A model generated the notes under the pieces. The model worked only from the letters and a program-made list of their open reading frames with translations. It was not told the DNA's origin and made no database searches. 64,000 nucleotides of DNA from Chrysogorgia sp. JL179-B06 (taxonomy: Eukaryota > Cnidaria > Anthozoa > Scleralcyonacea > Chrysogorgiidae): positions 124,001-188,000 of the forward strand of contig JAYKKM010000124.1 in assembly GCA_035772405.1 (NCBI GenBank), given 5' to 3'. Shown one piece after another: positions 18,950-49,544 of the stretch (position 1 is the first letter of the stretch; each line of letters opens with the position of its first letter). The translations under genes and the position numbers were made by a program.

Positions 18950-18999
18950 ACAAAATAATAAAAAGCATTATTTATTTAATACAAATTATAATTTATTTT

Positions 19000-19025: not shown

Positions 19026-19108
19026 CTATATAAATTTAAATATAAAAACAACTAAAATACTAGTTATCTTAATTTTTATTGTTGAATTTGTCTGGTATCA
19101 AGGATATA

Positions 19109-19185: not shown

Positions 19186-19186
19186 A

Positions 19187-19263: not shown

Positions 19264-19299
19264 ATAATAAGATGCAAGATCTAGCACCGCAATATTTTA

Positions 19300-19692
19300 T
19301 TAACGTTTTGAGAATTGTCTTGCTTTTCTTGCTTTTCTAAGACCTGGTTTTTTACGTTCTTTAATTCTAGCATCCCTAGTAATCATTTTTGTTGCCTTAA
19401 GTTCCTTGCGATAATCATCTGAAATTTTAAGAAGTGCTCTTGTGATACCCAGTCTTATAGCCCCGGCTTGACCAGATAATCCACCACCCTTAACATTAAC
19501 ATTTATATTAAATGTTCCTTTTGTTTTAGTAATAACTAATGGTTGTTCAGCATCTTGAAAAAGCAAACTTGATATTAGATACTCTTCAGCTTTACGTTTA
19601 TTAATTATAAAATCACCATTACCAGGTTTTAAAGTTACTCTTGCTATCGATGATTTTCTTCTCCCCAACCCCCTATAAAATAGTTCTGCCAT
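19300..19692 (-). CDS. rpsI: Ribosomal protein S9
   Basis: 130 residues. 'YRGLGRRKSSIARVTLKPG' and the basic C-terminus 'KKPGLRKARKARQFSKR' (reaching into the ribosomal P site) define uS9. The start is 3 bp after the rplM stop, the standard L13-S9 operon. Confidence 0.97.
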   Translation of the reverse strand: MAELFYRGLGRRKSSIARVTLKPGNGDFIINKRKAEEYLISSLLFQDAEQPLVITKTKGTFNINVNVKGGGLSGQAGAIRLGITRALLKISDDYRKELKATKMITRDARIKERKKPGLRKARKARQFSKR

Positions 19693-19695
19693 TAT

Positions 19696-20128
19696 TTAAC
19701 CTCTAATTTCCTTGGCTTTTGTGCCATTTGTTTGTGCTCTTTCACTTGCATATACAATATAAATTTTGAAACTGCTTTCTTCCTAGTTTTGTGTGGGGCA
19801 ACATCCCTTTTATTGCTTTTTCTAAAATTGCTAATGGTTTTTTCTTTCTTAATGTAGAAGCATTAATTGATTTTAATCCGCCAGGATATCCAGAATGAGA
19901 ATAATAAATTTTATTTTTTTCCTTGTTTGCTGATAAAACAACTTTATCTGCATTAACTATTATAATGTTATCACCCATATCAATATTAGAAGTAAATGTT
20001 GGTTTTGTTTTACCCCTTAAATGACTAGCAGCTAAAGTTGCAACTTTACCAACAATTTGATCACTGGCATCAATAAGAAGTCATTCTTTTTTTACATCTT
20101 TATTTTTTAAAATTGTGGTTTGTCTCAT
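19696..20128 (-). CDS. rplM: Ribosomal protein L13 (one-base frameshift near its end)
   Basis: It starts '[20 protein letters not shown]' and keeps 'LRGKTKP', '[12 protein letters not shown]' and '[16 protein letters not shown]', as in uL13. One extra T near 19757 shifts the frame to an early stop; dropping it gives a normal C-terminus ending next to rpsI, 143 residues in all. L13 is essential in bacteria, so a real loss is unlikely. This is evidence for indel errors in the sequence. Confidence 0.93.
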
Positions 20129-20270
20129 GTTTTTCCTTTAAATTGTTACTTGAATTATTACTTAAAAATGGAACTTTTAAGTGCTTTTACATTATATCAA
20201 AAAAAATTCAAGTTCATAATTTAAAACCTTGAATAAATTAATGGAAAATATAAATAAAAAGTCTTTAAAT

Positions 20271-22115: not shown

Positions 22116-22126
22116 TATTTTTCTCC

Positions 22127-22417
22127 TCAAATATTATTCGAATGTTGCTTGGTTTTAGCATTAATTAATAATCGTGATTTTTCTTCTAATTCACTCTGAA
22201 TTTTATTAGCAAGATATGCATATTCTATATCTTTATCCTTTTTTATAGTTAACAAAATAATAAAAGCATTATTTTTTGCATCATGTAAAATATTTAATTC
22301 TTTAGTTTTAATATTTTCTTTAATGCTTATAATTGTTTTTAAAACCATTTGCTCATATGCGTAATCCTCAACAAAAAACTTTTTGTTTAAATGATAATTA
22401 ACTTTAACAAAATGCAC
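22127..22417 (-). CDS. Small protein of unknown function between efp and tkt
   Basis: 96 residues with a GTG start (22415-22417) overlapping the efp stop TAG by one base, so it is translationally coupled. An alternating helix/strand pattern is suggested ('NAFIILLTIKK'), with no membrane segment or catalytic motif. I do not recognise the family. Coupling to efp and the position 11 bp before tkt suggest housekeeping. Confidence 0.6.
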   Translation of the reverse strand: MHFVKVNYHLNKKFFVEDYAYEQMVLKTIISIKENIKTKELNILHDAKNNAFIILLTIKKDKDIEYAYLANKIQSELEEKSRLLINAKTKQHSNNI

Positions 22418-22981
22418 TATTTACCTCCTCTTCCAACATATTTCCCATCACTTGTAGAAATTATAATAACATCACCTTCTTTTATAAACATTGGGAACTT
22501 CAAGTTCAAAACCAGTTTTAATTTTCACCTTCTTTTGGGGATTATTTTGAGTATTGCCCTTAACTGCGCTAGGGGCTTCAATTACTTGAACTTCAATGTT
22601 AGTTGGAAGTTCGATATCCAAAATATCATTCTCAAATTGTCTTACTTTAACTTTTTGACCTTCATTTAAAAAATGGATTTCTCATTTTACTTTTTCTAAG
22701 GAAATTTCAATTTGTTCAAAAGTTGTGTCATCCATTAAGATTAAATTTTGATCATCTGAATATAAATAATCCATATCATGCTTAATGATTAGTGCAGGCA
22801 TAACCTTATCGCTACTAATAAATGATTTAAGTGATATTGATCCTGTTCTTAAATTTTTAACCTTAACTTTTATTGTTGCCTGTCCCCTTCCCTGTTTTGA
22901 ATGTTGAGATGTAATGACAACAAAAATATTATCATCTTCCTGAAAGGTTATTCCTGGCTTTAATTTGTTTACATTAATCAT
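22417..22981 (-). CDS. efp: Translation elongation factor P (one-base frameshift near its end)
   Basis: It starts 'MINVNKLKPGITFQEDDN' with 'HSKQGRGQATIKVKVKNLRTG', the KOW-like domain I of EF-P, where Lys/Arg at the loop tip contacts the ribosome. The OB domains follow ('VQVIEAPSAVKGNTQNN'). An extra C in a CCC run near 22489 shifts the frame; the original frame resumes and ends 'SDGKYVGRGG' as expected, about 187 residues. It relieves stalling at polyproline. Confidence 0.92.
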
Positions 22982-23178
22982 TAAATCCCCTTATTATATA
23001 TTAATTATACATCAAACAAAAAACCATCATAATAGATAATATTTTTTGCTTTCATAATTAGTATATTTTTTATCTTAATTTTTTTGTTCATCATTTTTTT
23101 GTGTTTAAACTATAAAAAACCAAATGTAGTAATTTAGTTTTAATTTTATAAAATAAAAACCATAGATGATTAATATGA

Positions 23179-23337
23179 TTATTTTTTTTCTCTATATAAG
23201 GTGTGTTTTCTTAATATAGGATTGTACTTTTTAAGTTCAAGACGATTAAGAGTATTTTTTTTATTTTTTTTAGTTATATATGTCTCATGTCCTGATTCTG
23301 TACATTTTAAAATGATTCCATTCTTTGTTTGTCCCAT
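23179..23337 (-). CDS. rpmG: Ribosomal protein L33
   Basis: 52 residues: '[21 protein letters not shown]' and '[21 protein letters not shown]' are the bL33 pattern. Of the four zinc Cys found in C+ paralogues only one remains, so this is a zinc-independent form. GGAG lies 5' of the ATG. Confidence 0.9.
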
Positions 23338-23519
23338 GATATTTTTCTCCGTTGTTGTTAGTTTTGTTTTTTTAATTATACAAAAAAATGAAGATATAGT
23401 AGTTCAAATAATGAAAAAAGGGTTTTTAAAAATAATTAATGTTCCTAGATATCTAGAGACTTTAAAAAATAAATATTTCTATTGTTGGTTTTTTTATGAG
23501 TTTTTATTAATTTTTATTT

Positions 23520-24215
23520 AAATAACTTTTTAATTTATCTATAGTGAAAATTGAATGATTTGTATTTAATATTGCATTTTTTAATATATCAAATTGATTA
23601 TCTTGAAGTTCATCATTCTCATAAATGAATTTATGAAAAGCATAATATTGTGTGTTTTTAATACCAAATGTCCATTTAAAATCTATACTTTTGCTCGGTA
23701 ATTCATATTTAAAATCTTTTTTTCTCTTATTATATCCCTATCAACAAATAAAGCATCATACCACCATTAGAAAGATTAAAAAAATTTTAACTCCTTTTTT
23801 GTTTGTTTGATGTACTTTGCGACTGTTTTTTCATAAAAAATTTGTTTAGATTAGATCTTTTTGTAAAAATTAATATAGCTATTTTATCATTAGATTGTAT
23901 TCTTTTATCCAAATTCTTTTGGTCTATGTTAAATTTTTTATAGCATATTTCTTAATTGTTTGCCTAAAAACCAGGATTTTTATGTTCTAATAAAACTTTT
24001 GCCATGTTTTCTTTAATGGTCTTCTATTGGATTTTGTCACATTCTAACATAATTGAATCATCCTTTTTATTATACTCAAATAAAATCTTCCTCTGGTCCT
24101 TTCACCTTTTTTCAAATTCCTAAAAGGTGACAAAAATATTTCTTCATTTAATTTTAAAAAATTTGCTAATTTTTCATTTGATAAATACTCTATCTATTAA
24201 TTTTTTAAACAAAAT
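23520..24215 (-). pseudogene. Decayed copy of the R-M module at 55875-57461
   Basis: In several frames it matches the end of the methyltransferase ('IFLSPFRNLKKG' vs 'IFLAPFKNLRKD') and the endonuclease that follows ('YYAFHKFIYEN', 'DNQFDILKNA', 'LKSYLN'). At least six stops or frame changes are present. Order and strand are as in the better copy. It is clearly defunct and lies in a core-gene neighbourhood. Confidence 0.6.
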
Positions 24216-24365
24216 TTTATTTTTATGATTTTACATAAATACATATTCAGTAACTAAATATAAAATCTTTTGATATTTCACTTTTTTTTTTTTTTTGGTA
24301 AAACTATTGAAAAACCAGAGATAAACAATGATATTTAGTATTTGGAAATTGTCAAACTTAGAAAT

Positions 24366-24509
24366 TTATTTATTTTTATTTTTTTTTGGTGCTCTTTGAG
24401 ACAGAGCTGAAGCAGCAGCAGTTTTGCTAGTCTTACTTGTTCTATTATCTCTTAAAACTTTTGAAGCAGCCTTACCAGCTTTTTTACCTGTTTTTCTTTG
24501 TTTTTCCAT
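24366..24509 (-). CDS. Small basic conserved-looking protein
   Basis: 47 residues: 'KTGKKAGKAASKVLRD' followed by 'SKTAAASALSQRAPKK'. Ala/Lys-rich with a repeated SK/AAS pattern that I have seen in short uncharacterised bacterial proteins. The start at 24509 is preferred over 24569 because AGGAAA lies just upstream. Function unknown. Confidence 0.6.
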   Translation of the reverse strand: MEKQRKTGKKAGKAASKVLRDNRTSKTSKTAAASALSQRAPKKNKNK

Positions 24510-24767
24510 TATTTTTCCTTTCCTATTGGTTGAAAAACCAATCAATTTAAAATATCTTCTTAATAGCATTATAACAATTTAGAAATTTTACTTTCAAATA
24601 TTTTAATCATTAGTCCGAAGCAATAACTTTCCATTGTAAAATTCAAAAAGAGGGGTATTGTTAAAGAAAACAAAAGAAGTTATTAGAATAATCCAAAAGA
24701 GTTTTTAAAAACTAATAAATACTTAAATTGTTTGTATTTTTAGTGAATTTCTTAATTTGAATTTTTA

Positions 24768-25604
24768 TTAAATCTTCTTTTTCAACTTTGCTATTTCACT
24801 TTTGTATGGTGCCATGCCATTTATCCATGGAGTTTCAAGAACTTTTATTAAGCCTTTGAATTCTTTTGCATGTACAAATTTTTTAAGAGCATTTGTATTT
24901 ATAAATCCCGTACCAATGTTGGCATGACGGTCTTTTTTTGCAAATAAAGGATTTTTAGAATCATTTATATGTAATGATCTTATATGACTAAGAGTTTCAG
25001 TGTTTTTAAGTTCATTAATAATTGCATCAAAATCATTAACATTATAACCAGCATCTCATGCATGACAAGTATCTAAGCAAATTGCTAGTCGGTTTGAAGC
25101 AACATTATCAATAACAAATTTTAGTTCTTTAAAAGTTGTGCCAACTTCAGTTCCTTTTCCTGCCATAATTTCAAGATGAATTTCAACTTCACTAGTCTTC
25201 AATAAAATGATTTTTAAACTTTTTATTAAAACTTGCAAACTTTCTTGACGTGAAAATTTAGTATAAGCTCCAGGGTGAAGCACAAGTTGTTTTAATCCTA
25301 AGTAATTCATTGTTTTAATTTCACTAATTAAAAACTCAATTGCAAATTGGTGTTTTTCAACACTTGAAGGATTAACAATGTAAGGGGCATGTACCAAAAT
25401 ATTTTCTTTTGGCATTAAATTCATATATTGTTTTTCATATTCATCTAAAAACAATTTTTCTTTGTCAGTTCTTTTTGTATTTTGAGGAGCCCCCAAATAT
25501 ATCATAAGGGCACTGGCATTATAGCTGAGTGCTTCTTTAACTGCTCCTAATAAATAGTTGTTAACCTTGTTAAATGAAACATGAGAACCAAATTTTAATT
25601 GCAT
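24768..25604 (-). CDS. nfo: Endonuclease IV (AP endonuclease)
   Basis: 278 residues. 'LKFGSHVSFNK' opens the barrel. 'ILVHAPYIVN', 'LVLHPGAYTK', 'IHLEIMAGKGTEVG', 'CLDTCHAWDAGYN' and 'IRSLHINDSKNP' provide the three-zinc ligands (His, Glu, Asp) of the Nfo family. It cuts DNA 5' of abasic sites in base-excision repair. It sits 8 bp after the Nif3-like gene in the dnaG-rpoD operon. Confidence 0.95.
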
Positions 25605-29929: not shown

Positions 29930-32900
29930 TTATCCTTTTGAAAGACCAGTTTTTGTAAAGACTTTATCTTTTCCATGATTTCTAATAGTTAATACAATCT
30001 TACCTTCCAAATCATTAGGTTCAATTGTTATATCACTAACAACAATTAACTTTCCATTAGCAATAGTTAATTGTTTATTGAGTGCTTCAATTAATTTAGC
30101 TTTAGTCACTTTTTTTGATGCTACTGATGGTAATTCAACTGTGCTATAAAAACTATCAAAATAATTAATTGCCAATGCCTGCACTGCATTCTTAGTAATA
30201 GTTCATTTATCATATTCAGCTTTTAAAATTACTTGTGGGGTTAATTTGATGATAATATCATCTTTATCTCCAGGATTTGTTACATTTTTTAACATTAGCG
30301 TTTATCCTAAATAGTCTATCAGCTTTTTTAAGATCTAATACTAAAACAACATCTTGTTCATTTTTATTTTTAAAGTTTATAGTTATAAGTTGTGTAACTG
30401 GTGTAGCTATAATTTTTGTAGCTGGTTTAGCAACCAGAAATGCTATATAGACAATACGTTTTGGTTTATAAACAATTGTTTTATCTTCAAGATGAGTTAA
30501 TCTTGATGAACCATCTTGTGGTAAATTTTTTGTGTTTTCATAAGATATTTCAATTTATAATACTTTTCATGGATAGCTAAATTTTGCAAAATTAAAAATT
30601 TATTTGTTTTTTTAAACATATGGTTTCCAGATCAATAATATGTTTGTGATTTATAATAACCATTTAATTCTGGAGCAACATTATTATAAATAGCAATTAT
30701 TTTAGAACTTAAATTAAATGATTTATATTGATACGTTATATCATGTACAATTACCTTTGAAGTTGATACAAATGCACCAAGTGTTTTCATTTCTACTTGA
30801 ATTCTAATTATTCCAGAAGAATCATCTAGTTCTGCTGAAATTACATATGTTGAAGTAGCAGCTAGTCCAGTAAGATCAATGCCAGTTTCTTTTTTAAGAG
30901 ATATCGCATCCTTAATACGAGCTGCAATGGTAGATACTTTAACAGGGGAATTTATTGCTTTTCCAGTTTGTAGTTTAGTTTTAAGTGCTTCTAAATTAGT
31001 TTTTTGAATTTCATTTTGCTTAGCTACATCAATTCCAGCAACACTCACAGTAAATGTTGCTGTTACTCTTGCTGTGCCCTTAACAATTTTTACAGTAACA
31101 GTTAAATCACCATCAATTGTAATGCCCCCATGGGAATAAGTTAGGATTGTGCCCCTAGTATTGCCTGGGAAGGTTCCAGCAGTTCCACCAAGTGCTTTAA
31201 AAGCAGCAACATCAAATGGTGTGTTTGCAGCTACTACTGGAATATCAACACTAGAAGTTTTTTTCACTCCAGAGATTGCTTCAATTAAAACTTTAACATT
31301 ATCTACATCCACTTTATCTAAACTATTTTGTACCTCAGTATCAATGGTAGCATCGCTCTTATGGTTAATAGTGTGAGCAACCGCAACTGAATTTAGAACT
31401 GTTGCACCACTCGTTGTCATTATTACACTAATAGTAATTACTCCAGTATCTTTATCTCCATTTGCTGAAATTACATATGTTGAAGTAGCGGCTAGTCCAG
31501 TAAGATCAATGCCAGTTTCTTTTTTAAGAGATATCGCATTCTTAATACGAGTTGCAATGACCCTCACTTTATCAGCATCATTTATAACATTACCACCAGT
31601 TAGCTGCGTTTTAAGTGCTTGTAAATTATCAGTCTGAATTTTATCTTTCTTAGCTGCATCAATTCCAGTAACACTCACAGTAAATGTTGCTGTTGCTCTT
31701 GCTGCACCCTTAACAATTTTTACAGTAACAGTTAAATCACCATCACTTGTAATGCCCCCATGGGCATAAGTTAGGATTGTGCCCCTAGTATTGCCTAGGA
31801 AGGTTCCAGCAGTTCCACCAAGTGCTTTAAAAACAGCTTCATCAAAAGGTGTGTCTGCAGCTACTAGTGAAATAGCAACATTAGAAGTTCTTTTCACTCC
31901 AGTTATTGCTTCAATTATAGTTTTAATACTACCTGCATCTGTATTATTTTGTACTTCAGTATCACTCTTATGGTTAATATTGTGAGCAACTTGTGGTGAT
32001 TTTGGAACTGTCGCACCTCTTGTCGTCATTATTACACTAATAGTAATTACTCCAGTATCTTTAGCTCCACTTGCTGAAATTACATATGTTGAAGTAGCGG
32101 CTAGCCTAGTAAGATCAATGCCAGTTTCTGTTTTAAGAGATAGCGCATTATTAATACGGACTGCAATGACCCCTGCTTTATCAGCATCATTTGTAACAAT
32201 GCCCGCAGTTAGCTGCGTTTTAAGTGCTTGTAAATTATCAGTCTGAATTTTATTTTTCTTAGCTACATCAATTCCAGTAACACTCACAGTAAATGTTGCT
32301 GTTACTCTTGCTGTGCCCTTAACAATTTTTACAGTAACAGTTAAATCACCATCACTTGTAATGCCCCTATGGGAATAAGTTAGGATTGTGCCCCTAGTAT
32401 TGCCTGGGAAGGTTCCAGCAGTTCCACCAAGTGCTTTAAAAACAGCTTCATCAAAAGGTGTGTCTGCAGCTACTAGTGAAATAGCAACATTAGAAGTTCT
32501 TTTCACTCCAGTTATTGCTTCAATTATAGTTTTAATACTACCTTGCATCTGTATTATTTTGTACTTCAGTATCACTCTTATGGTTAATATTGTGAGCAAC
32601 TTGTGGTGATTTTGGAACTGTCGCACCTCTTGTCGTCATTATTACACTAACAGTAATTACTCCAGTATCTTTAGCTCCACTTGCTGAAATTACATATGTT
32701 GAAGTAGCGGCTAGCCTAGTAAGATCAATGCCAGTTTCTGTTTTAAGAGATAGCGCATTATTAATACGGACTGCAATGACCCCTGCTTTATCAGCATCAT
32801 TTATAACATTACCACCAGTTAGCTGCGTTTTAAGTGCTTGTAAATTATCAGTCTGAATTTTATTTTTCTTAGCTACATCAATTCCAGTAACACTCACAGT

Positions 32901-34553
32901 AAATGTTGCTGTTGCTGTTGCTGCGCCCTTAGCAATGGTTACAGTAACAACTAAAGTACCATCAATTGTAATGCCCCCATGGGCATAAGTTAGGGTTGTG
33001 CCCTTAGTAATGCTTGGGAAGATTTTGTCAGTTCCACCAAGTGCTTTAAAAGCAGCAACATCAAATGGTGTGTTTGCAACTACTAGTGAAATAGCAACAT
33101 CAGAAGTTTTGTTCACTCCAGTGATTGCTTTAATTATAGCTTGAATACTATTTACATCATCTACTTGATTTTGAGTTAAGAATCCTGAGATTGTAAATTC
33201 TTTTGAACTAGATCCAATATTCTCGATAACAATTTTTAAGGAACCATTAACATTATTAGGAACTAATTTTATGTTAGAAGTTGAAACTGCATCTTTAATT
33301 TTGTTCCTAAGGGAAACATCAGTAAAATCAGTTTCAAATTTTGCATGAATTATACCAAGAATTGCAGCTTTATTGTCATATGCACTTGGTAAAATTTTGG
33401 AATTTTTAATACCATCAAAACCATTTGCATTTATAGGGTTTATAATTTCTCATGCTTTATCTTTATAAGTAGCAAATCCACCTAACTCCAGGAATTTAAC
33501 TAAAGGAGTTACACCTTCTACTGCTTTAAAAATAACCTTTACTCCTGATCCATCAGTTTGCTTTGTTGATACTTTAACACTACCAATTGTAATACCTGTT
33601 GGGGTTTTTCCATCAAATTCAATATCAGCAATCTTAATCTCATCAGCTGTTTTGAATTCTGACCCATCCTTAATTTTAATTTTATAATCTTTAATGTGGG
33701 AAAAATTGACATTTTTTGTATCCTTATAAGTTTTATAATTAAATGTAATTGTGCCAGGAACAAAATCTCCAGAAGCTTTTAAGTCATCTTCTTTAGTAAA
33801 TTTAATATGAGCATCTAAATCACCTTCTATAATAGTAGTACCAGATACTAATGAAATAATATACTTTTTAATGGCCCTTAGTGCATCAGAATTTTCATCT
33901 TTATTTGCATTATAATTAGAGAAAGCACCTTTATTTGGAATAGCTTCTGTAAATGCAAAAAATAATTCAAGCATTTTATACTCTTTAACTTTAAAACCTT
34001 TTGTAAGTTCCTTAGAATTAGAAAATGATCTTCCTTGATTAAATGCCCCATGTATGAATTTGTCTTCAAAAATTGTATATAAAAATGCAAACTCATCTTG
34101 TGCAGCATCAATTTTATTTGCAGGTCAATCTGAATATTTATCATCTTTTGATACATTTTCATTGGATTTTAACTTAAACACAAGAAGTAGTTGCTTAAGT
34201 GCATTACTATCTTCTCCTTCATAAATAGAAATTTGATAACTATCTTTATTATCAAAAATATATCCACCAAGAACAGTTGCTGCAACATAACGATCTTTAA
34301 TTGCATCAGTTAAAGTGTCAATATCTTCATCTTTTTTAACCTCAAGTCCGTATAGTTCCATTGTTTTATTTTTAGCAACTTGTTTATCTTTTGCTGCAAC
34401 TATTTCCGCAACTAAAGATTTATAATAACCTGCTTTTTTGTTGTCATTACTAAATTTCTCATTTAAAATAGGGACTAATATAGCAGTTAATGTTCCAACT
34501 GTTGTAGCTGCTATAAGTCCACCAATAAGAATTGTTTTACCTTTTGGCGTCAT
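29930..34553 (-). CDS. Very long repetitive surface protein, disrupted by frameshifts
   Basis: It starts 'MTPKGKTILIGGLIAATTVGT', a signal anchor without a lipobox Cys. A unique domain of about 450 residues follows, then at least four alternating module pairs. Module A has 'TPFDVAAFKALGGT' and 'LTYAHGGITIDG' (Lipoprotein_17-like); module B has 'ETGIDLTRLAATSTYVISA'. One A+B pair is about 203-210 residues and the pairs are nearly identical. An extra T near 32545 breaks the frame relative to the sister repeat; stops near 30500 and 30290 damage the 3' end. Total coding potential is about 1,500 residues. It resembles the modular variable surface proteins of mycoplasmas. Confidence 0.65.
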
Positions 34554-34941
34554 TTTAACACCCCTTTTCTTAGATATAACCATTATACCTGATAATGTAT
34601 CAAAATTATCATTACATGTAAAATTTTGGTGTTCACTTCAATTAAATAATCTATTGAAATTTAGACTTTATAATAAAATTTATAAATTTTTGAACCTAAA
34701 ATTACATACTCAAACTAAATATAACACTATTATAATTACAACATTATTAATGATATAAAATGTGACTTCCTAGTATCTTTGAAACCAAATCATGTAAAAT
34801 TTCCTAGCTGTTGTCCAGTTTGATAATTTTAAATTTTACACCTAGCAAAAACTATATAATTTTAGTGAAAATAGTTGATGAATCTAAATTACATGGAAAA
34901 GCATTGTTAATAGGTAACAACAAGATAATTAAAATATTAAT

Positions 34942-37644: not shown

Positions 37645-38247
37645 TTAATAATTGTTCTTAATAGCTTGTTGTAAGTCCGATATAGCTTTTTGGGGAGAGG
37701 TGGCATTTAATAAATATGAAGACAAAGCAACATATTTATAAAGTTTTATATTTATATTATTTATGTTTATATTATTTATTCCTCCGATTATTGCAATTTC
37801 ATTTGTTAATTGATTTATTTTGTGAAGGGAATCTAGTGGAAAAAAATTTGCATTCTTTTTGGTTGATGTTGGGTAAATGGCACCCACTCCAATAAGGTTT
37901 GCTCCATTTAAAACTGCTTGTTTTGCTTCTTTATAATTACTAACTGAAATCCCCATATGAAGGTTTTTAAATTTTTTTCGTAATTGTTTATGATTACCAT
38001 CTTTTTGTCCTACATGGAAACCATCACATTTTATTTTATCCAATAAATGTACTCTATCATTAATAATAAATTTTACTTTATATTTACTAGCAATTTTATA
38101 AATTTTATTTGCATTTTTTATAAAATGTTTATCTAGAGATTTTTTATCCCGAAGCTGAATAAACCCAATTTTTAACTTGGCGTATTTCTTTATTATTTTT
38201 AAAGAATTTTTGTGAAAATTTGTTACTAAGTAAATATTTTTATTCAT
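37645..38247 (-). CDS. thiE: Thiamine-phosphate synthase
   Basis: 200 residues from the ATG at 38247. 'IGFIQLRDKKSLDKHF' binds the pyrimidine, 'FIINDRVHLLDKI' and 'GFHVGQKDGN' are core ThiE motifs, and 'GVGAIYPTSTKKNA' and 'AIIGGINN' bind phosphate. It couples HMP-PP and thiazole phosphate to thiamine monophosphate. It overlaps the thiM stop by 8 bp and is the last gene of the riboswitch-controlled operon. Confidence 0.95.
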   Translation of the reverse strand: MNKNIYLVTNFHKNSLKIIKKYAKLKIGFIQLRDKKSLDKHFIKNANKIYKIASKYKVKFIINDRVHLLDKIKCDGFHVGQKDGNHKQLRKKFKNLHMGISVSNYKEAKQAVLNGANLIGVGAIYPTSTKKNANFFPLDSLHKINQLTNEIAIIGGINNININNINIKLYKYVALSSYLLNATSPQKAISDLQQAIKNNY

Positions 38248-38947
38248 AATTTTTAACAAAATTGTACATTTGTGAATATGAAACCATATCTTTTGTATAT
38301 AATTTTTCCCCCATTTTTTTCATTATTTTAGAAGCTAAAAGAGCAGCTTCAAAGGGTTTCATTTCTGTAATAAGAGCACCCACAAGTGAACTCAGCATGC
38401 AACCTATACCTGTTGTTAATGTCATTGCTAGATTGCCCCCTATATTTTCTTTTAAAAGTTCATTATTTATTATTAGATCCTTTTTACCTGTTACAAATAC
38501 AGTTGTTTTAAAATGTACTGCAATTTTTTTAAAATTATCAGTGACAATATCTTGAATTGAGCTATCAACACCATGGGATGCCACATCATTTACTAATGAC
38601 ATAATTTCAGAAGCATTGCCTCTAATAATTACAGGATTTTTTTGAGCAATTTTTCTTGAAAGCCTTGTTCTAAAGGCACTAGCTCCAGAACCTACTGGAT
38701 CAAGAATAAAAGGAACATGATTTTTATTTGCAAATTTAATTGCTTTAAAAATCAACCTTGTTTGTTTTTTATTAACAGTCCCTATGTTTATAGTCAGTGA
38801 TTTACTAATTTTTATCAAATCCTTTATATCCTTAATGCTTTTGGACATAACAGGAGATGCTCCAGCTGCTAATACAATATTAGCACATTGGTTTGCTGTT
38901 ACTTCATTAGCTATATTAAGAGCAATGCATTTATTTTTTAGTATCAT
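38240..38947 (-). CDS. thiM: Hydroxyethylthiazole kinase
   Basis: 235 residues. 'NEVTANQCANIVLAAGASPVM' is the ThiM substrate-binding front, 'FILDPVGSGASAFR' the Asp-Pro-Val-Gly segment, 'IIRGNASEIMSL' and 'GIGCMLSSLVGA' the catalytic GxGC loop. It phosphorylates salvaged thiazole. Start chosen at 38947, which has AAAGGA upstream; it overlaps the thiD end by 17 bp. Confidence 0.95.
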   Translation of the reverse strand: MILKNKCIALNIANEVTANQCANIVLAAGASPVMSKSIKDIKDLIKISKSLTINIGTVNKKQTRLIFKAIKFANKNHVPFILDPVGSGASAFRTRLSRKIAQKNPVIIRGNASEIMSLVNDVASHGVDSSIQDIVTDNFKKIAVHFKTTVFVTGKKDLIINNELLKENIGGNLAMTLTTGIGCMLSSLVGALITEMKPFEAALLASKIMKKMGEKLYTKDMVSYSQMYNFVKNYE

Positions 38948-39740
38948 ATTTATCCTTTCAAAAATGATTAATAGGTCCACTACCTTTGCCTATATTTAAA
39001 TTATTTATAATTCCCTCATGAACATAATGAATTCCTGCTTTTATTGCCTTATTAAGATCATTTTGTCTAACTCAAAAAGCAACAATTGATGAAGATAATG
39101 AACAACCAGTTCCATGAGTGTTTTTTGTTTGAATTCTTTCCTTAACTACTTTAGATATTGGGCCACCCTTTTTCAATGAAAACATATCATAAATTAATTT
39201 CGATTTAAGATGTCCACCTTTTAATAAAATTTTTTTAAATCCCATTGTTTGTAAATCTTGCAATGCCCTAGTCATAGCATGGATGTCCTCAATCTTTCGA
39301 TTTAAAATTAAACCTGCTTCTGCTATATTAGGAGTAAAAAGAAGGTCCATTTTTGAAAACAAGTGAATAAATGTTGCAATGCTTTTTTTATCAAGTAAAG
39401 AAGCATTAGTTTTTGAAACCATAACCGGATCAAGAACAATTTTAGTTGGAGGTAATTTACTTACAAATTCTGCAACAATTTTGATAACCTCATCATTAAA
39501 AAGAGCACCAATTTTAATACCACTAATTTTATAATCATCAAATAAACATTCTAGTTGCTGGGTGATCATTTGTTTACTTGTAATCTCAATTTTTTTTATA
39601 ACCTGTGAATTTTGGGCTGTTAGCCCCGTTATAACGCTCATTGCAAAAACCCCATTAGCTTCCATTGCCTTAATATCAGCTTGAATCCCTGCTCCACCAG
39701 AGGAATCAGAACCTGCAATTGTTAAACATGTTTTTTTCAT
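38931..39740 (-). CDS. thiD: HMP/HMP-phosphate kinase
   Basis: 269 residues. 'CLTIAGSDSSGGAGIQADIK' is the ThiD signature, with 'DPVMVSKTNASLL' and 'THGTGCSLSSSIVAF', the anion-hole/catalytic Cys-adjacent motif. It makes HMP-PP for ThiE. Its ATG overlaps the stop of the upstream fusion gene (ATGTAATG), so the two are tightly coupled. Confidence 0.95.
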
Positions 39741-41017
39741 TACATCACCTGATCAAAGAACTTTTTCTCAAGAACCAGTGTTCTTTTAAAAATTCTTTGG
39801 CACTTTCATTTGTCTTTGGAATTCATTTGTTTTCACTTGTTATATACCAGTTTGGCAATTTCATCAGCACTATCAAAAAAATCTTTTGAAGTATATATTG
39901 CAATCCACTCCTGATACACATCACTTGTTTTAATAGAAATAATGTATTTACCTAAATAAGCATATCCAATAAAGCAAGCAATGAGAGCAAAAAAGAGATA
40001 ATTATAATTACCAGTATTTGCCGTTTTCATAGTAAATTCAATGTAAGCCTTAGTTTGCTTTGATATTTTAATATCTTTGATAGTCTGAATTTTATATTTA
40101 TGGCGATATTTTAATTCTTCATCAATAATTAGTGTAACTTGCTCATTTGCAAATTTTGCTTCATTTTTATTAGTAGTTAATAAAGCAAGTTTTTCTCAAC
40201 CCTTTTTATAACTATGAAGATATACAATATCTTGAAGCATATATTCATTAAATGCTGCTTTTTTTAATTTCCCATTTGCTATTTGTTTAGCAAACTTATG
40301 CCTTGTATAAGCTTCTCATTGTTTTAGCATTTTGCTTTTAATGACCTTAACAAAACCCAAATCATCTTCATAGGAATTGTGTTCACTTTGTTTTAAAATA
40401 TGAGGAAGAGCTTTTACTAAAGGAATAAATACTAAAATGGCACAAATAAGTTGTCCTGATGCCATTGTACTGTTATATACAAATGAGTATAAATAAATCC
40501 CATAAGGTGTTTTGTCTGCATAATAACCTCAAACTAAAAAACCAGAAATAAAAGTTAAGACAAAACCCATAATGGTAGTAAAAATAATAAATAAAATTCC
40601 CTTAGTAATAGAATGCATTTTTTTTATTTTTGTAGTCCATTCACTTAAATAATAACCAATAACAATTGCTAGAAAAGCAGCACCTATATAATCAAGTAAA
40701 ATGGAGATTAAAATCCCTCATCATGAATAGACTGCCACTGGCGGAAACATAGTACCAGGGTGTAAAATTAAAACAACAATAATACTTGCAAGCAAATTTA
40801 AAAATGCACCTAAATAAGAATTATGGCGATATGAAATAACAACAACTAAAACAAATGATATGTTGATAGCACCTCCCTCAGGAAAGATTTTTGAGAGATA
40901 AACATTAAAAATAGTATTTAAAGCAATTATTAGACCTAAGATAACACCACTTTCTGTTATTAGAGTAATATTATTTCGGGTATCTCTATGTTTTAATATT
41001 TTTTTATTTTTCATCAT
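39740..41017 (-). CDS. ThiT-TenA fusion: ECF thiamine transporter S component joined to thiaminase II
   Basis: 425 residues in one continuous frame. Residues about 20-208 are a six-helix S component with ThiT-like features: 'IFPEGGAINIS', 'LDYIGAAFLA', 'GIYLYSFVYNSTMASGQLI'. Residues about 222-397 are TenA: 'KQWEAYTRHKFAKQI', 'FNEYMLQDIVYLHSY' and 'FFALIACFIGYAYLG' with the catalytic-type Cys348, then 'YQEWIAIYTSKDFF'. TenA hydrolyses thiamine or its breakdown products to release HMP. Joined to the transporter, the enzyme would act at the membrane on incoming substrate. Start at ATG 41017, just after the riboswitch terminator. Confidence 0.85.
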
Positions 41018-41022
41018 ATAAA

Positions 41023-41054
41023 ATAAAAAACCTCCATGCCTAACAGAGGTTTTA
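41023..41054 (-). terminator. Riboswitch expression-platform terminator
   Basis: Stem AAAACCTC/GAGGTTTT around a 10-nt loop with a following T-run, placed between the TPP aptamer and the ATG at 41017. It should form when the ligand is bound. Confidence 0.8.
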
Positions 41055-41059
41055 AATAA

Positions 41060-41154
41060 AAAGCAAGCTCCCAACGCAAGTATTAACTTGATCTGGTAAT
41101 AAGAGTGCCTCTCAATTAACTACAATAGCTAATGCCCCTGTCTTGTTTATTATA
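41060..41154 (-). promoter_or_regulatory. TPP riboswitch with its promoter
   Basis: Minus-strand aptamer elements in order: CAGGGGCATT, TTGAGAGG, ACCAGATCAAG, TTAATACTTGCG and TTGGGAGC. These are the conserved THI-box segments (GGGG, CTGAGA, GAACCTGATC, TAATACCAGCG, AGGGA). A TATAAT box (41149-41154) sits about 8 bp upstream of the first aptamer bases. It controls the four-gene thiamine operon. Confidence 0.9.
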
Positions 41155-42690: not shown

Positions 42691-43681
42691 TTAATATTCT
42701 ACTGTTTGCAATAATTTGTCTACAGAAACAAATGAAATCCTTTTATTAGTTTGATCATGGAGTTCATCAAAGTATTTATCCTTATTATCATATAAAAAAG
42801 TTTGTGAATCATTATCATAAAATTTAAAAAAGATTTCAAAATCATGATGCTTAATCCCGTATTTATTTAAATAATCTTTTATGATGGCTATAGAGTATTT
42901 TTCAATTGCAATTTCATCATTTATGCTTTCATAAAAATGAATTAACTCATGCACTAAAGAAACTAATCATCTATACTCCCTTTTGAACATATCTGATAAA
43001 AATATAAATCTTGTATTTTTTTTCTTGAAAGAAACACCTTTTACAAGTGATTTTGAAATATAAGGACCATTTTCAACTATTATTCCTCGATTTCAAAGTT
43101 CTCCTTTTATTTTTGTAATTCGTTTATTTATGTTTAAATGGGAAAAAAAGATATCTAAAACCTTTTTATACACAGTAAGTTTTGATGATTTTTTAAATGT
43201 GTTGGAATTAGAATTAATCTTTATATTTTTTATACATCAAAATTATCCAGAATTTAGCAAGAGAATTGTCTTTATATTTTGAAAATGACAAAGAAGAATT
43301 TAAAATAAATTTTTTTAAATTTTTAAAAGAATTTCCTTCAGTATTTTTTCTAATAATACTAATTTTAGAAAAATCATCCAACAATTTAAAATCTTCAACA
43401 TGATTTGCTATTTCTAACTCTTCTTCATTATTGGTATCTAAATCTTTTAATCTATTATAAGTTGTAAATAGAAATGCTTCATCATTTTTCAAATCATCCA
43501 AAACCATAGAAAGTCTTCTAGAACGTTCAAAAGAAATAGCTTCTTTACCATTTATTAAATTTGATAAATTTATTTCATTTATTTCAGTTAGCAAACTTAC
43601 TTCTTTGGATGAATAATTGTTTTTCTCAATATGTAATTTTATTATTTCTCCAACAATTATTGCTGCTGCTGATTGAACCAT
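42691..43681 (-). CDS. HTH-ImmA/IrrE-like protein, antitoxin of TA module A (one frameshift)
   Basis: The N-terminus has an XRE-type helix-turn-helix region ('SLLTEINEINLSNLINGKE'). The C-terminal part has the zinc metallopeptidase motif 'LVHELIHFYE' (HExxH), as in ImmA/IrrE. The two halves are separated by one base in an A6 run near 43225. The gene starts 3 bp after the upstream HigB-like gene. Copies B and C at 47055 and 57906 share this fused layout. The fused HTH would neutralise or autoregulate; the role of the peptidase is inferred. Confidence 0.65.
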
Positions 43682-43684
43682 ATT

Positions 43685-44002
43685 TTACCCCTTTTTATAA
43701 TCATGATCATGAATTTTTACTATTGTTATTTTTTCTATTGAGAGAAAATCCTTTTGATTATTATATTGAAAATTTACTCTTCAGGATTTATTTAATCTAA
43801 ATTTACCAATATTATTATAACCTTTTAATTTTCGAATGTCAAGCCCTATGTGTTTAGATGCATTGCCTATATTTTTTGATACTGATAAAAATTTTTTACA
43901 TTTAACAAATTGTCTGTATAAATAAGATTTATATTCTAATTTAAACCTTTCTTCATCATTACAAACATCTCTTAACTTTTTATCCTCATATTTTATAATC
44001 AC
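43685..44002 (-). CDS. HigB/RelE-like toxin, TA module A
   Basis: 105 residues, basic, with the small RelE-fold pattern: a helical front, then a C-terminal basic/aromatic strand region and 'KIHDHDY' near the end, like the HigB tail with its catalytic-site His. Members cleave mRNA at the ribosome. It is the first gene of the pair and is intact here, while the equivalents in copies B and C are broken. It lies 280 bp from the CRISPR array, divergently oriented. Confidence 0.6.
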
Positions 44003-44160
44003 TAATACCTTTCTTTTTTATTAATATTTATATTAGGATTATAGCATAAATTAATCAATATTATTTAATGAGTGCATAAGCTCCATTTGCAGACTTAATT
44101 ATGACTTGATTTTGTTTAATAAGATAAAAATTTTGAAAATCGAATTTTTTTTAAACTACG

Positions 44161-44252
44161 AAAAAATTGCTTTTATTTAATAGCAAAATCCAAATAACTT
44201 TTACATAATCTAAAAGTTTCTTAATAATTATGAATAGTGATAGTTCCAAAGC
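44161..44252 (-). ncRNA. Possible tracrRNA-like or array-trailer RNA next to the CRISPR array
   Basis: Positions 44237-44252 (plus strand GTGATAGTTCCAAAGC) match the end of the reverse-complemented repeat at 13 of 16 bases. All three differences are transitions, two of which still allow G-U pairing with the plus-strand repeat. On the minus strand this is followed by a perfect 7-bp stem (44196-44218) and a TTGCT/AGCAA stem (44167-44186) with a T6 run. This order (anti-repeat, stem, terminator) recalls tracrRNA, but could be only a degenerate repeat and a terminator. Confidence 0.35.
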
Positions 44253-44265
44253 TAATAAAAAAATG

Positions 44266-44271
44266 TATAAT
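44266..44271 (+). promoter_or_regulatory. -10 box just before the CRISPR array
   Basis: A perfect TATAAT, with TG directly in front, ends 9 bp before the first repeat, placing a plus-strand start at about the first repeat base. No clear -35 is seen, as is usual in mycoplasmas. Confidence 0.5.
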
Positions 44272-44280
44272 TAGTTTGAG

Positions 44281-44778
44281 GTTTTAGAACTATTACGTTT
44301 AGTACTAGTCCAAAACCATTTTGGCAATTAGTACATTGACATTTAAGTTTTAGAACTATTACGTTTAGTACTAGTCCAAAACTGTTAGCTAAATTATTAA
44401 TCTGTGTTTTTAGTTTTAGAACTATTACGTTTAGTACTAGTCCAAAACTCAACATCGTTGTAGACAAAGCCTTGCTTAGTTTTAGAACTATTACGTTTAG
44501 TACTAGTCCAAAACTTTTCTGTTAAAGCAATTTCGGTTGCTTGTGTTTTAGAACTATTACGTTTAGTACTAGTCCAAAACGATGAGTTGATTGCAGATAT
44601 TTCGTTACTTGTTTTAGAACTATTACGTTTAGTACTAGTCCAAAACCAACAGATATATTTGTACTTGTGCCTTCAAGTTTTAGAACTATTACGTTTAGTA
44701 CTAGTCCAAAACCGTTTATCTTTGTTAAATACCTACTAATTAGTTTTAGAACTATTACGTTTAGTACTAGTCCAAAAC
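44281..44778 (+). CRISPR. CRISPR array: 8 repeats of 36 bp, 7 spacers of 30 bp
   Basis: Repeats at 44281, 44347, 44413, 44479, 44545, 44611, 44677 and 44743 are identical. They begin GTTTTAGAACTATTAC and end TACTAGTCCAAAAC. All seven spacers are exactly 30 bp and different from each other. The repeat is nearly palindromic: GTTTT/AAAAC ends, then a 6-bp stem, one mismatch, 3 bp and a 5-nt loop, folding best as the minus-strand RNA because GGAC/GUUC then pairs with G-U. 36/30 spacing and a whole-repeat hairpin suit type VI-B; the GTTTTAGA start also resembles type II repeats. No degenerate end repeat fixes the direction. Confidence 0.97.
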
Positions 44779-44800
44779 ATTAAATATTGAAAAAATAAAT

Positions 44801-44825
44801 AAACCACTCTAATGTGAGTTGGTTT
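44801..44825 (+). promoter_or_regulatory. Hairpin between array and effector gene
   Basis: Stem AAACCA-CTC / GAG-(T)-TGGTTT, 9 bp with one bulge, overlapping the -10 box of the effector gene. It could end array transcription or act in the effector leader. Confidence 0.4.
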
Positions 44826-44841
44826 ATGATATTATTTAATT

Positions 44842-46774
44842 ATGGATAATAATAAAAATGAAGATAATAAATATCTCCTATACCTATACACTGGTATAGC
44901 TTTACTTAATGCAGTGACATATACAAAAATTAATTATAAAAAGGAAAAAGATATTGAAATAAAAGAAACTAACTTTGAAAATCATTTTGAATTAAATGAT
45001 AATTGAAATTCATTATTGAATAAGACAAACAAAAGAAAAGATAAATCAGCTGAAAAATCAGTTAAAAAAGAATGAGAAAAATCTCTTGCTCAATATATTA
45101 ATTTATTAAGAAATTTTTATTCTCATTCAGAAGCAAATAAAATTTATAAAGAAAATAAAAAAAAACTAGAAGAATTCGAGAAAAATTAAAAAATGACTAT
45201 TTAATGAAATAATTGATGGGATGAACCAAAATTTATTCAAAGAATTTAAAAAATATGAAAAAAGAATTTTGTTCACTTGCTTATTTTTAAATAAATCAGA
45301 AATTAAAGATCTTATTAATCAAATAAACATCAATTATAAAAATACTTTTACAAATACACTACTTATACTTGAAAAATCTAGATGACATAGAAAATATGGC
45401 TTTGTACAAACAAATGTGTATACAAGAGAATCAATTTATGATAAAGTACTAAATTACTTTAAAAATTTTAATGATGTAAAAAATCACAAAAATGCATTTA
45501 TTAAAATAGGTATATCATTGCTTAATTATAAATATAAAAATGATAATATTAGGTTTAAAAGATTAAAAAAGCATGAAAAATATTTAATTCATTTTTCAAT
45601 TATTATTAAAGATAATAAAATACTTAATGAAGGTGTTATTAATTTTGAAAGCTTAAAATATTTATTACTAAGTCAATGAAGAAAAAGCTTTAAAAAAGAT
45701 TATTTATCCTATAAAAAAAGAAGAAGTGCATGATATTTCCTAAACAATCATTACTGGAAAATAATAATTTTGAATCATTTAAACATAGATATAGTCCAGA
45801 TTCGCAAAATAGGGATTCGACATTTATTAAAAACTCTAAATAGAGTAAATTGGCTAGTTGCTAATAGTGATGAGGATGATTCCTTTAAATTACATCAAAC
45901 TTGATTTGAACTTTTATTTCAAACTTTAAATCTTGAAAATATTCAATTTCTTAATTATGATGAGAAACTAAAGGATATGTTAAACAAAATGCTTAACATA
46001 AATACTAAGGATAATAATTTGACAACAGATCAATTGAAAAACTCTATTAAAGAATATATATTATTAAAAATTGATTCAAAAGATAAATTTGAGGCATTAA
46101 TACACAAAAATCCATTGGGGACTTCAGAAACTATTGGAGAAATCCAGGGTACAAAATATATTAAATGAAAATTAATTATGAAGGCAAAAGAATTTTCAAA
46201 TTATGAATATGATAGGGAATTGTTTGATTTTCAAAATTTAAAAAATAAATCTCCAAATGAAAGAAAAGAGTTAAATATTAAAAAACTTTTTTTAGCACCA
46301 ATAGCAATGTTTTTTATTAATCATTTTAAAGATGTTACAAAAAGAACAACCAGAACAATCGATGAGACTTTTTGTAAAAAACAAAATATAGATATTTTTA
46401 ATGACAAGCAACTAACCTATATATTCAAAGATAAAATACCTAGTGATAAAAACGAAATTAAAATTATTGATAAAGAAACTCACAAAGAGTTTAAATTAAC
46501 AAACTTTAAACCAGAAGATATGCACTATATTATTAATTCAAAACTATTTATTGCATTTAAAGATCTATTTCAAATAAATGAAATTACTAAAATGACTTGA
46601 AAGCAAATACTTAATGAAATAAGTAAATATACTACAAAAGAAATAGATATTATCAAAAAAGTGTTTCCTTGAGACACAAGGAAAAATGACCATTATAAGT
46701 ATAGAAATTATATTGCTCATAGAAGTCTAAATTTATTTAGAGATTATGAAGAATTTAAAAAAATTGCATATTAA
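44842..46774 (+). CDS. Compact Cas13b-like type VI CRISPR effector (one-base frameshift)
   Basis: About 643 residues after one extra A in an A5 run near 45182-45186; otherwise a single frame with TGA as Trp. HEPN RX4H motifs occur near both ends: 'INLLRNFYSHSEANK' (R90/H95) and 'KYRNYIAHRSLNLF' (R621/H626). This terminal placement is the Cas13b layout; in Cas13a, c and d the first HEPN is internal. The 'LRNFYSH' context resembles Cas13b HEPN1. Known compact Cas13b proteins are about 770-800 residues. It begins 63 bp after the array, with a TATGAT box at 44825-44830 and no Shine-Dalgarno site. Expected role: RNA-guided RNA cleavage in anti-phage defence. Alternative: a HEPN abortive-infection RNase beside an unrelated array. 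Confidence 0.75.
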
Positions 46775-46854
46775 TGGAGAATAAAGTGTATTAACTATTT
46801 TTTACCATAATAACCATAAAAATTGCATTTTATTTTAACCTGACCCCTGAAGTA

Positions 46855-46880
46855 AACTCCAAAAAAGGAGTTTTTTTAAT
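46855..46880 (+). terminator. Intrinsic terminator after the Cas13-like gene
   Basis: AAACTCC/GGAGTTT stem, A6 loop and T7 run. The same hairpin occurs at 57614-57637 in the duplicated segment. Confidence 0.7.
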
Positions 46881-47054
46881 CTTCTAATTTGGGGTTATGA
46901 CACTTCTAATTCAATCAATGGGATAAAAATCAATTTAAGAGATAATAATTAGAATTAGAAATGGGGTTATGAACTCATCTAATAATAAAATACATTATAT
47001 TAAAAATATTTTATCACTTTGATAAAATATTAATTTTTATTTTTAAATATAATA

Positions 47055-48017
47055 TTATTTTTGAGCTGTTTCCTTGAACAAGCTGTCATAACTACCAAAA
47101 TGTATTCTCAATTTTGTTTTTTGATGTAACTCATCTCATTTATTTGGATATTCTTTTTGTAAATGATATATTTTCATTGCTAGTTCAAGTTCTTCATGTT
47201 GTTTTTTGTATTTTTGTAAATAAGTTTTTATATTAATTAGCTACTTTATCATTATGATCATTAAAATCATTGACATAATAATGAAATAACTCATGAATTA
47301 AGGTAAAAATATATTGATACTCTCTCTTCTGCTTGTCATTTATAAATAAAAATTTTTGTTTTTTTCTTGTAAAAGTTGCCCCATTAATTGTCGAATCGGG
47401 AATGAAAGGTTCGTTCACCAGAATAATTCCATGTTTATCTAAGAAATTAAACAAATTTTTAATTCTAGTCTCTAACTCCTTCTCATTAATAATTATATCT
47501 AATACCCCTTTTAAAATGGTGGGTCCACTAGATTTTTTAAATTTTCCTATTGATATTCTATGTCCGTGTTTTTTCAAGCAAAGCTTAGTCATAAATAAGC
47601 TAATGGCTTATCTTTATATTTACTAAATCCACTAGAAACCTTTTCAAATTCCTTTTTTCTATCATTTATTTGATTTGCATTTAAAAACTCTGAGGCCATT
47701 TTTAAAAGAGTTTCCTTAGAATATAAATTAAATCTTTCAATTTTTTCTAAAAATAAAGCTATTTCATTTAAACCTTTATCATTTTTTCTTTTTAATAAAT
47801 TTTCTTCTTCAATTTTAATTTTTAGTAAAAAAGTCTCAGGAAGTCCTAAAGCTTTTTCTATTTTCACAATTGTTTCATATTTAGGCTTTTTCTTACCCGT
47901 TAGAATATCTGAAACAATTTGATTAGAAATATTTGCTTTTATAGCCAACTCCTTTTGACTAATATTTTTTGCTTTTATTTTGTTTTTTATAATATCTTCA
48001 ACCATTTTAATATTCAT
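47055..48017 (-). pseudogene. HTH-ImmA/IrrE-like protein, TA module B
   Basis: An intact XRE helix-turn-helix part ('ISQKELAIKANISNQIVSDI') is followed by the peptidase part ('FTLIHELFHYYVNDF', HExxH). Frame breaks fall at an A6 run near 47570 and an extra T near 47232. Copy C is in frame at both places, so this copy differs by small indels only. Either sequence error or mild decay. Confidence 0.65.
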
Positions 48018-48950: not shown

Positions 48951-49544
48951 ATGAAAACAATTCACATTATTTCACAAAATCACAAAGCTTTTATTTGTCA
49001 AAATTGCAAAAACAATGTTGCTAATCAAACAGGGTATGTCTCATATAGTAATATAGAGTTGTTTACTACTTTACTTTGTCCATTATGTGGTTTTTGAAAT
49101 ATATATAAAAAAAACTTTAAACCTATTTTGCCAGAACAAAAATATTCAAAAGAAATAAAAAATTTAGATGGATCAATTTTAAAAATTTACAATGAAATAC
49201 AAGATATGGCAAATCAAAATAGATGAAGATTAGTTATATTGTTATCCCGAATATTAATCATGCATTTATCAGTAAAACAAGGAGCTAAAGAAAATCTATC
49301 TTTTAAAAAATATGTTAAATACTTGGAAGATAATAATTTAGTCAACAAACATTTATTAAAATTGATTGATAAAATTAGGGATAGAGGTAATGAATTAAAT
49401 CATGAAATAGAATCTTATGAGGAAAAACAAGATGATGAGATTGAAAAAGAAGGTAAAATATATATAGATGTAGTTCAAGATGTTTTAGATCATATTTTTA
49501 AGTATAAACATTTATTAGATGAAAAGAATTCAGAAAATAAATAA
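48951..49544 (+). CDS. Zinc-ribbon DUF4145-like (HEPN-type) protein
   Basis: 197 residues, one frame. 'FICQNCKNNV...LLCPLCGFW' gives two CxxC pairs about 30 residues apart, a zinc ribbon. The C-terminal helical part has 'IDKIRDRGNELNHEIES', the R...NxxxH pattern of DUF4145/HEPN proteins. Such proteins are frequent in defence islands, often beside restriction enzymes. Function not known. Confidence 0.6.

Follow-up and report, generated by a model that had tools for sequence, protein, structure and literature searches.

Which effector uses a clustered regularly interspaced short palindromic repeats (CRISPR) array that lies directly in front of a gene with two ribonuclease (RNase) motifs, in an assembly whose Cas9 has an array of its own? 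This question is raised by a locus in the window analysed here, a stretch of 64,000 nucleotides (C124:124001-188000; C124 is contig JAYKKM010000124.1, 422,099 bp) of assembly GCA_035772405.1, which was deposited for Chrysogorgia sp. JL179-B06 and comprises 781 Mb in 522 contigs. A first-pass annotation, made from the letters alone, had read the locus as a miniature Cas13b-like system. As judged from its sequence, the protein is one with Cas13b-like motifs near the N-terminus and two RX4H motifs, the remainder being without detectable similarity. We consider it probable that the locus represents a compact single-protein type VI-like (Cas13-grade) system, i.e. an RNA-guided RNase with its own array, which would borrow the adaptation machinery of a type II-A system. 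We class it as a putative type VI variant.

The array and the protein encoded behind it

The array consists, exactly as first annotated, of eight 36-bp repeats and seven 30-bp spacers (Table 1). All eight copies of the repeat GTTTTAGAACTATTACGTTTAGTACTAGTCCAAAAC are identical and follow one another with a constant period of 66 bp (starting at 44281, 44347, ... 44743). With up to three mismatches allowed, the repeat occurs eight times in the 781-Mb assembly, always in this array, and not once on the other strand. As had been noted, the ATG at 44842 follows 63 bp behind the last repeat. The gene that begins there is split: in the frame of this ATG a stop follows at 45187-45189 after 115 codons (translation table 4), while the rest lies in another frame, which is open from 45170 to a stop ending at 46774 (first listed ATG at 45221). 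For comparisons, we used 45191-46771 (527 codons) as C piece and the 115 codons in front of it as N piece. The single gene of 643 amino acids (aa) proposed in the first pass could not be upheld, as its reading crosses the frame change. Its two RX4H motifs, one near each end, were retained (R90/H95 of the N piece and a second one in the C piece) and are conserved in the homologue described below.

When the C piece was searched against 5.8 billion proteins, with the 8000 candidates sharing most words being scored, one match was obtained: P0001, a 718-aa protein from a 13,487-bp contig, which aligned over 97% of the query at 33% identity (E = 2.7e-54). Identity amounts to 46% over 115 columns for the N piece and 33% over 539 columns for the C piece, and P0001 is intact across the stretch that matches the frame break. 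It contains exactly two RX4H motifs, each window piece contains one, and they fall into the same alignment columns near both ends (P0001/window: RNRFSH/RNFYSH near the start, RNAIIH/RNYIAH near the end). At motif level, the gene encodes a single effector with two HEPN RX4H motifs, the HEPN fold itself being putative. When P0001 and the window pieces were combined into a profile for a second search (7999 candidates, E up to 10), P0001 alone was recovered. No homologue is encoded in viral contigs, none was found by pattern in GTDB contigs (589 stretches), and none is encoded in genomes from the order (320) or the class (395) of Mycoplasma sp. ATU-Cv-703, two sets that overlap partly and were searched with an alignment query lacking a positive control. 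As a single query, P0001 matched the window locus and nothing else in the assembly of that locus.

Table 1 Features of the CRISPR locus (positions in the window).
Feature	Position	Strand	Remarks
TATAAT, possible -10 element of the array promoter	44266..44271	+	in the leader; sequence reading
TTTGAG, leader end abutting the first repeat	44275..44280	+	shared with the array of Cas9 (ATTTGAG; group 1 motif of type II-A)
CRISPR array	44281..44778	+	8 identical 36-bp repeats, 7 different 30-bp spacers
Hairpin behind the array, perhaps where its transcript ends	44799..44827	+	fold of 44779-44841
N-terminal piece of the effector gene	44842..45189	+	115 codons, table 4; first RX4H RNFYSH 45109-45126
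A-rich stretch with frame change	45170..45189	+	both frames open
C-terminal piece of the effector gene	45191..46774	+	527 codons as used; second RX4H RNYIAH 46703-46720
Terminator-like hairpin with T run behind the effector gene	46854..46873	+	terminator scan

Resemblance to Cas13b

Does the protein belong to Cas13b, as first proposed? As reference, 276 Cas13b sequences were found with a Pbu/Psp alignment, of which 120 were listed and 14 aligned, together with one from a viral contig; P0001 was not among the 120 listed of these 276 profile matches. The viral-contig record holds a Cas13b of 1138 aa followed by an array with a 65-bp period and 17 copies in register. Comparison of the P0001/window alignment with the reference alignment by hhalign yielded four local alignments, the two best of which are in the right order: an N-terminal stretch (P0001 6-61 to Cas13b 16-74, E = 0.029) and the LFLxK stretch (LFFIMLFLNKSELIDLKKDL to LFFVSLFLDKKDAIWMQKKL, E = 0.055). 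In a MAFFT alignment of P0001 and the window pieces with seven Cas13b, both RX4H motifs came to lie in the Cas13b motif columns.

We also scored ungapped blocks of six Cas13b (N-terminus, HEPN1, LFLxK, DMLNEL and RHxDRF), whose order was required; the blocks were picked after the N-terminal resemblance of P0001 had been seen, and P values are optimistic. P0001 reached 19.2 bits (z = 5.4), compared to a maximum of 5.9 for 300 shuffled sequences and of -14.4 for 54 open reading frames (ORFs) of the same bacterium, with positive scores for the N-terminus (14.6), HEPN1 (10.8) and LFLxK (7.0) only. The window pieces, joined by X, scored 5.6 (z = 4.5; maximum of -4.0 in 300 shuffles), HEPN1 (15.0) and LFLxK (10.3) being positive and the N-terminus negative (-5.8). 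Taken singly, the N-terminus, HEPN1 and LFLxK blocks scored as high as in P0001 in 3, 102 and 98 of 5000 shuffles, and as high as in the window protein in 2119, 12 and 11. Among 155 control ORFs, 0, 0 and 2 attained the values of P0001 and 24, 0 and 1 those of the window protein. The N-terminal Cas13b motifs are hence present in order, with two of the three in the window protein. A hidden Markov model (HMM) of the Cas13b N-terminus, built from eight rows including an incomplete one, gave 8.6 bits for residues 1-190 of P0001, more than for any of its 2000 shuffles; for the window N piece (rank 864), 6/2000 shuffles scored higher.

The designation 'Cas13-like' is supported by these data, while membership in type VI-B is not established. 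Of the likeness to Cas13b initially claimed, the N-terminal resemblance stands; the assignment to VI-B is not supported, given that no model matched at cut-off, that hhalign E values were as stated and that the lid and central parts gave no match beyond chance.

A Cas9 system in the same assembly and the ownership of the array

The window appears to be bacterial DNA that was sequenced along with a eukaryote's genome, and the host of the locus is a wall-less bacterium (mollicute). Window genes reach full size only when TGA is decoded as tryptophan (table 4), and the nearest named RpoD in GTDB contigs (6 loci from 87 stretches) is that of Mycoplasma sp. ATU-Cv-703 with 58% identity. The assembly has a single bacterial-type rpoB above cut-off, which lies on C124; other matches are short fragments on contigs C96 and C391, taken for eukaryotic exons. 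Because of this single rpoB and a common TGA code, the simplest reading is that C124 and a second contig, C420 (292,053 bp), together 714 kb, come from one mollicute genome.

C420 carries a type II-A locus at 16094-25032. Its Cas9 (TIGR01865, E = 7.4e-142; 1174 aa in one open frame with 16 TGA codons) is the assembly's only match to this family among 74 candidates, of which 43 were scored, and bears out the earlier remark that the lineage is known for Cas9. Behind cas9 lies an array (19665-23003) of 50 exact repeats GTTTTAGAGTAGTATCATTCTTATGTGTTCTAAAAC and one copy with an extra base, followed on the other strand by a gene of 224 aa, cas2 (TIGR01573) and cas1 (TIGR03639, E = 3.5e-92). The 224-aa gene matched no family; from the gene order, we take it for a csn2-like gene. 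The anti-repeat of the trans-activating CRISPR RNA (tracrRNA) was located at C420:25000-25032 on the minus strand with a score of 58, the maximum in 6 shuffled repeats being 39.5. Mycoplasma sp. ATU-Cv-703 has a Cas9 match as well, with at least 23 repeats of mostly 66-bp period in the same locus.

Might Cas9 then also use the window array? The two repeats are identical at 20/36 positions in the same orientation. The scan that located the Cas9 anti-repeat covered 104 kb of C124 and 40 kb of C420, and for the window repeat it gave no anti-repeat exceeding the null (best score 34.5; null 29-36, 6 shuffles); on these two contigs no match to 22 bases of the window repeat with up to 3 mismatches was found outside the array. 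On other contigs, the 22-base search gave 13 matches and its reversed-pattern control 11; the Cas9 anti-repeat would pass this filter with 2 mismatches. Because the scans of C124 and C420 revealed no anti-repeat, and hence no tracrRNA complementary to the window repeat as type II-A demands, use of this array by Cas9 appears unlikely. The array adjacent to the gene seems not to be owned by another effector, as its repeat is unique and Cas9 has its own array and anti-repeat.

Both arrays start at the same junction, TTTGAG/GTTTTAGA (the slash marks the end of the leader); at the Cas9 array it reads GATTTGAG/GTTTTAGAG, with the same six leader bases at the end. Compared to the type II-A leader end, ATTTGAG before a GTTT repeat, the window sequence GTTTGAG/GTTTTAGA agrees at 6/7 positions. 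TTTGAG occurs at a frequency of 0.00048 of the positions in the window and is absent from the opposite end of the array. In a survey of type II-A loci, ATTTGAG formed the leader end in 87/167 cases, and it proved essential for adaptation at CRISPR1 of S. thermophilus (PMC5382924). Because the TTTGAG junction is common to both arrays, we propose adaptation in trans, and in the simplest reading the type II-A Cas1-Cas2-Csn2 would fill both arrays.

Because of the position of this junction, we place the leader at the left and transcription on the plus strand, which would yield CRISPR RNAs (crRNAs) with the spacer followed by the repeat. The leader contains TATAAT, the -10 consensus; a promoter scan did not return it at 44266, and scan matches within 44000-46900 were at chance level (23 found, 24.0 expected). 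The hairpin between array and gene has a minimum free energy of -13.6 kcal/mol (z = -3.8; 1/200 shuffles as stable) and is absent from the list of the terminator scan, which found 3 sites in 44000-46900 (0.3 expected from shuffles), among them the one behind the effector gene. Spacer-then-repeat is also the order described for Cas13b and Cas13an (PMC12165695).

In crRNA sense, all seven spacers are pyrimidine-rich (purine excess -2 to -8), compared to 23 negative, 22 positive and 3 zero balances among 48 spacers of the Cas9 array (49 inter-repeat stretches, from which one 97-base piece was excluded). Seven random Cas9 spacers would all be pyrimidine-rich with P = 0.0037. Because the coding strand is purine-rich (55% in 12 window ORFs), the bias is what crRNAs antisense to mRNA would give, and we take it as a hint in this direction.

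How might such a system work? The array would be transcribed from left to right from its leader, each crRNA bearing its spacer before the repeat, and the protein of 643-718 aa would bind the crRNA and mature it without a tracrRNA. When the crRNA pairs with the transcript of a phage, one composite RNase would be formed by both HEPN motifs and would cut target and bystander RNA. New spacers would be inserted by Cas1-Cas2-Csn2 of the type II-A locus on C420, which most likely belongs to the same bacterium, through recognition of the common junction TTTGAG/GTTTTAGA.

Alternatives and place among known systems

Several results weigh against a type VI-like system and have to be set against the evidence above. 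No Pfam or NCBIfam model matched the window pieces or P0001 at cut-off, nor did any PADLOC Cas13 model (at best, the N piece weakly matched the candidate family PDC-M38B, E = 0.0098; P0001 gave nothing), and PDB sequences yielded no match beyond one chance hit (E = 1.6). In the window protein, the N-terminal block is at shuffle level, and the same holds for the lid and central blocks DMLNEL and RHxDRF in P0001 and the C piece (898-2532 of 3000 shuffles), with the exception of DMLNEL in the C piece (103/3000), whose place is out of register. The HEPN2 block prefers the first motif of P0001 (17.4 bits) over the second (7.1 bits) and does not fall on the second RX4H of the window C piece, and the N-terminal HMM ranked full-length P0001 4454 of 4455 and the window C piece 4449. 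Two facing HEPN folds, for which a look by structure prediction had been suggested in the first pass, could not be recognised, as the AlphaFold models were too poor (mean predicted local distance difference test, pLDDT, of 36.6 with 3 rows and 41.7 with 10 rows including Cas13b); Foldseek with the 10-row model returned 37 matches from the PDB, the best with E = 0.069 and none of them a Cas13. Divergence of this degree has a precedent in Cas13an, for which neither HMM nor Foldseek comparisons gave a significant similarity to the other Cas13 (PMC12165695).

The one homologue, P0001, is known as a protein alone, and the effector gene of the window is split by the frame change within 45170-45189. 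The repeat RNA folds better on the minus strand (-9.5 vs -6.1 kcal/mol), and window and Cas9 repeats match best in reverse, at 26/36 positions vs 20/36 in the same orientation, a value reached by 0/20,000 end-preserving shuffles. The best repeat agreement is reversed although the leader junctions give both arrays one orientation. The spacer bias rests on seven spacers (Mann-Whitney test: purines, P = 0.099; A minus T, P = 0.023), and a codon-based strand test of the spacers gave P = 0.67. No protospacer was identified among phages (57 records, the 20 listed all with E of 2 or worse) or plasmids (4 records, E of 2 or worse); in the contig DNA searched, the nearest match was a single one with 7 mismatches, and three degenerate peptide-type spacer patterns had 0 matches in viral contigs. 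Finally, 2/12 clusters with an intramolecular HEPN dimer adjoined arrays in the Cas13an study (PMC12165695).

Could array and gene be mere chance neighbours in a defence island, that is, an orphan array of the type II-A kind, left as a relic or served in trans, next to a HEPN abortive-infection RNase that works without a guide? We give this a minor but real chance. The type II-A leader junction, the repeat ends GTTT...AAAC, the position amid pairs of helix-turn-helix (HTH) and peptidase-like genes with a HigB-like gene below cut-off, and the failure of Cas13 models to match the protein would all suit it, as would the share of array-associated clusters just mentioned and the tracing of Cas13 to defence-associated HEPN genes (PMC12165695). 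However, the sole Cas9 found is provided with a separate array (50 exact repeats), and its anti-repeat does not fit the window repeat; 8/8 window repeats are identical, and the array is therefore not decaying; and motifs of the Cas13b N-terminal type follow in order, in a gene 63 bp from the array. That Cas9 nevertheless employs the window array, with the HEPN protein as an accessory, we regard as very improbable: both arrays have the 36/30 geometry and leader junction in common, but their repeats agree at 20/36 positions, and Cas9 has an anti-repeat for its own repeat while none was found for the other. The first-pass annotation had itself named crRNA binding by a Cas9 encoded elsewhere as the alternative; such a Cas9 exists, with a tracrRNA anti-repeat fitting the other repeat.

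The frame change would also be compatible with a type VI-like system that once worked but has since lost its effector gene to pseudogenisation, to which we concede a small chance. Similar breaks affect rplM and efp (window 19703-20128 and 22421-22981), genes that should be indispensable to a living cell; both change frame near their C-termini (near QFQNLY and FELEVP, respectively), with a fitting C-terminal end readable in a neighbouring frame. Because these essential genes are broken alike, indel errors in the assembly are probable, and the break in the effector gene is probably such an error rather than a real mutation. Moreover, beyond the break the gene reads through without a stop for >527 codons, both motifs are kept and the repeats are perfect.

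We hence retain the compact type VI-like system as the preferred interpretation. More tentatively, and with slightly more doubt than trust, we suggest that it may constitute a separate compact type VI lineage (about 640-720 aa, two proteins) between the sizes of Cas13an and Cas13bt, which resides in a mollicute, has no adaptation genes of its own and imitates the junction of leader and repeat found at the resident type II-A locus, so that Cas1-Cas2-Csn2 writes its spacers.

With type VI-B (Cas13b, Cas13bt/X/Y), the locus shares an RX4H motif near each end of a single effector beside an array, the order of the N-terminal motif, RN-x3-H and LFFxxLFLxK, and the 36/30 repeat/spacer geometry known from type VI-B. 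It differs in the size of its protein family (643-718 aa, compared to 922-1175 aa in the 120 listed of 276 Cas13b), the lack of detectable lid/central similarity and of an HMM match, the type II-A-like leader junction and the mollicute host. Sizes of 740-1300 aa have been given for Cas13e-i and of about 800 aa for Cas13Bt (PMC9554183). Cas13an is also a very compact two-HEPN effector with a 36-nt repeat, a 30-nt spacer and a locus without other cas genes; its loci lack cas1/cas2, with type II cas1/cas2 present in trans in 4/10 genomes (PMC12165695). As described, it is smaller (429-577 aa) than the window protein (643 aa across the break) and P0001 (718 aa). For the window, the absence of cas1 and cas2 was confirmed among the seven neighbouring ORFs searched. 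As marks of VI-B, this absence and the 36/30 geometry do not serve, since the type II-A array has the same geometry and Cas13an has both (PMC12165695). The leader end TTTGAG, the repeat ends GTTT/AAAC, the 36/30 geometry and a II-A locus in the same assembly recall type II-A CRISPR-Cas9, in contrast to which the window repeat differs, no matching tracrRNA was found and the effector is not Cas9. HEPN abortive-infection RNases such as AbiD/AbiF possess RX4H motifs and have been proposed as relatives of Cas13 ancestors (PMC12165695), but they are not CRISPR effectors, and the window protein matched none of the Abi families of Pfam, NCBIfam and PADLOC.

An HTH gene and a small gene lie on each side of the CRISPR locus (42691-43681 and 47233-48017); the right small gene matches peptidase M78 (PF06114), and the left one looks alike by eye without matching a family. 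The HigB-like gene is at 43685-44002. At 48951-49544 follows a DUF4145-like protein (E = 9e-5, just under cut-off) with RGNELNH; DUF4145 is presumably of HEPN kind, and a second HEPN-type protein may thus lie nearby. By eye, 37645-41074 resembles a cluster of thiE, thiM, thiD and a transporter/TenA-like gene, which is unexpected for a mollicute with a small genome. Long proteins with repeats, probably located at the surface, are encoded at 3613-5493, 16076-17692 and 29930-34583 and in locus L023 of C420 (6357-7148), with similar stretches, by eye, on both contigs.

In the sections of the 2025 classification used here, type II is dominant in Mycoplasmatota and type VI goes unmentioned there (PMC12669027). 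Among the open-access papers listed for Cas13 together with Mycoplasma or mollicutes, no title or abstract start reports a native type VI system in a mollicute. If it works, a compact mollicute type VI system would join both ends of the Cas13 size range, and a natural RNA-guided RNase of 640-720 aa would be of interest for RNA editing. With two arrays in one genome that have a common leader-repeat junction and different effectors, the borrowing of type II adaptation by a cas1-less Cas13 would become directly testable.

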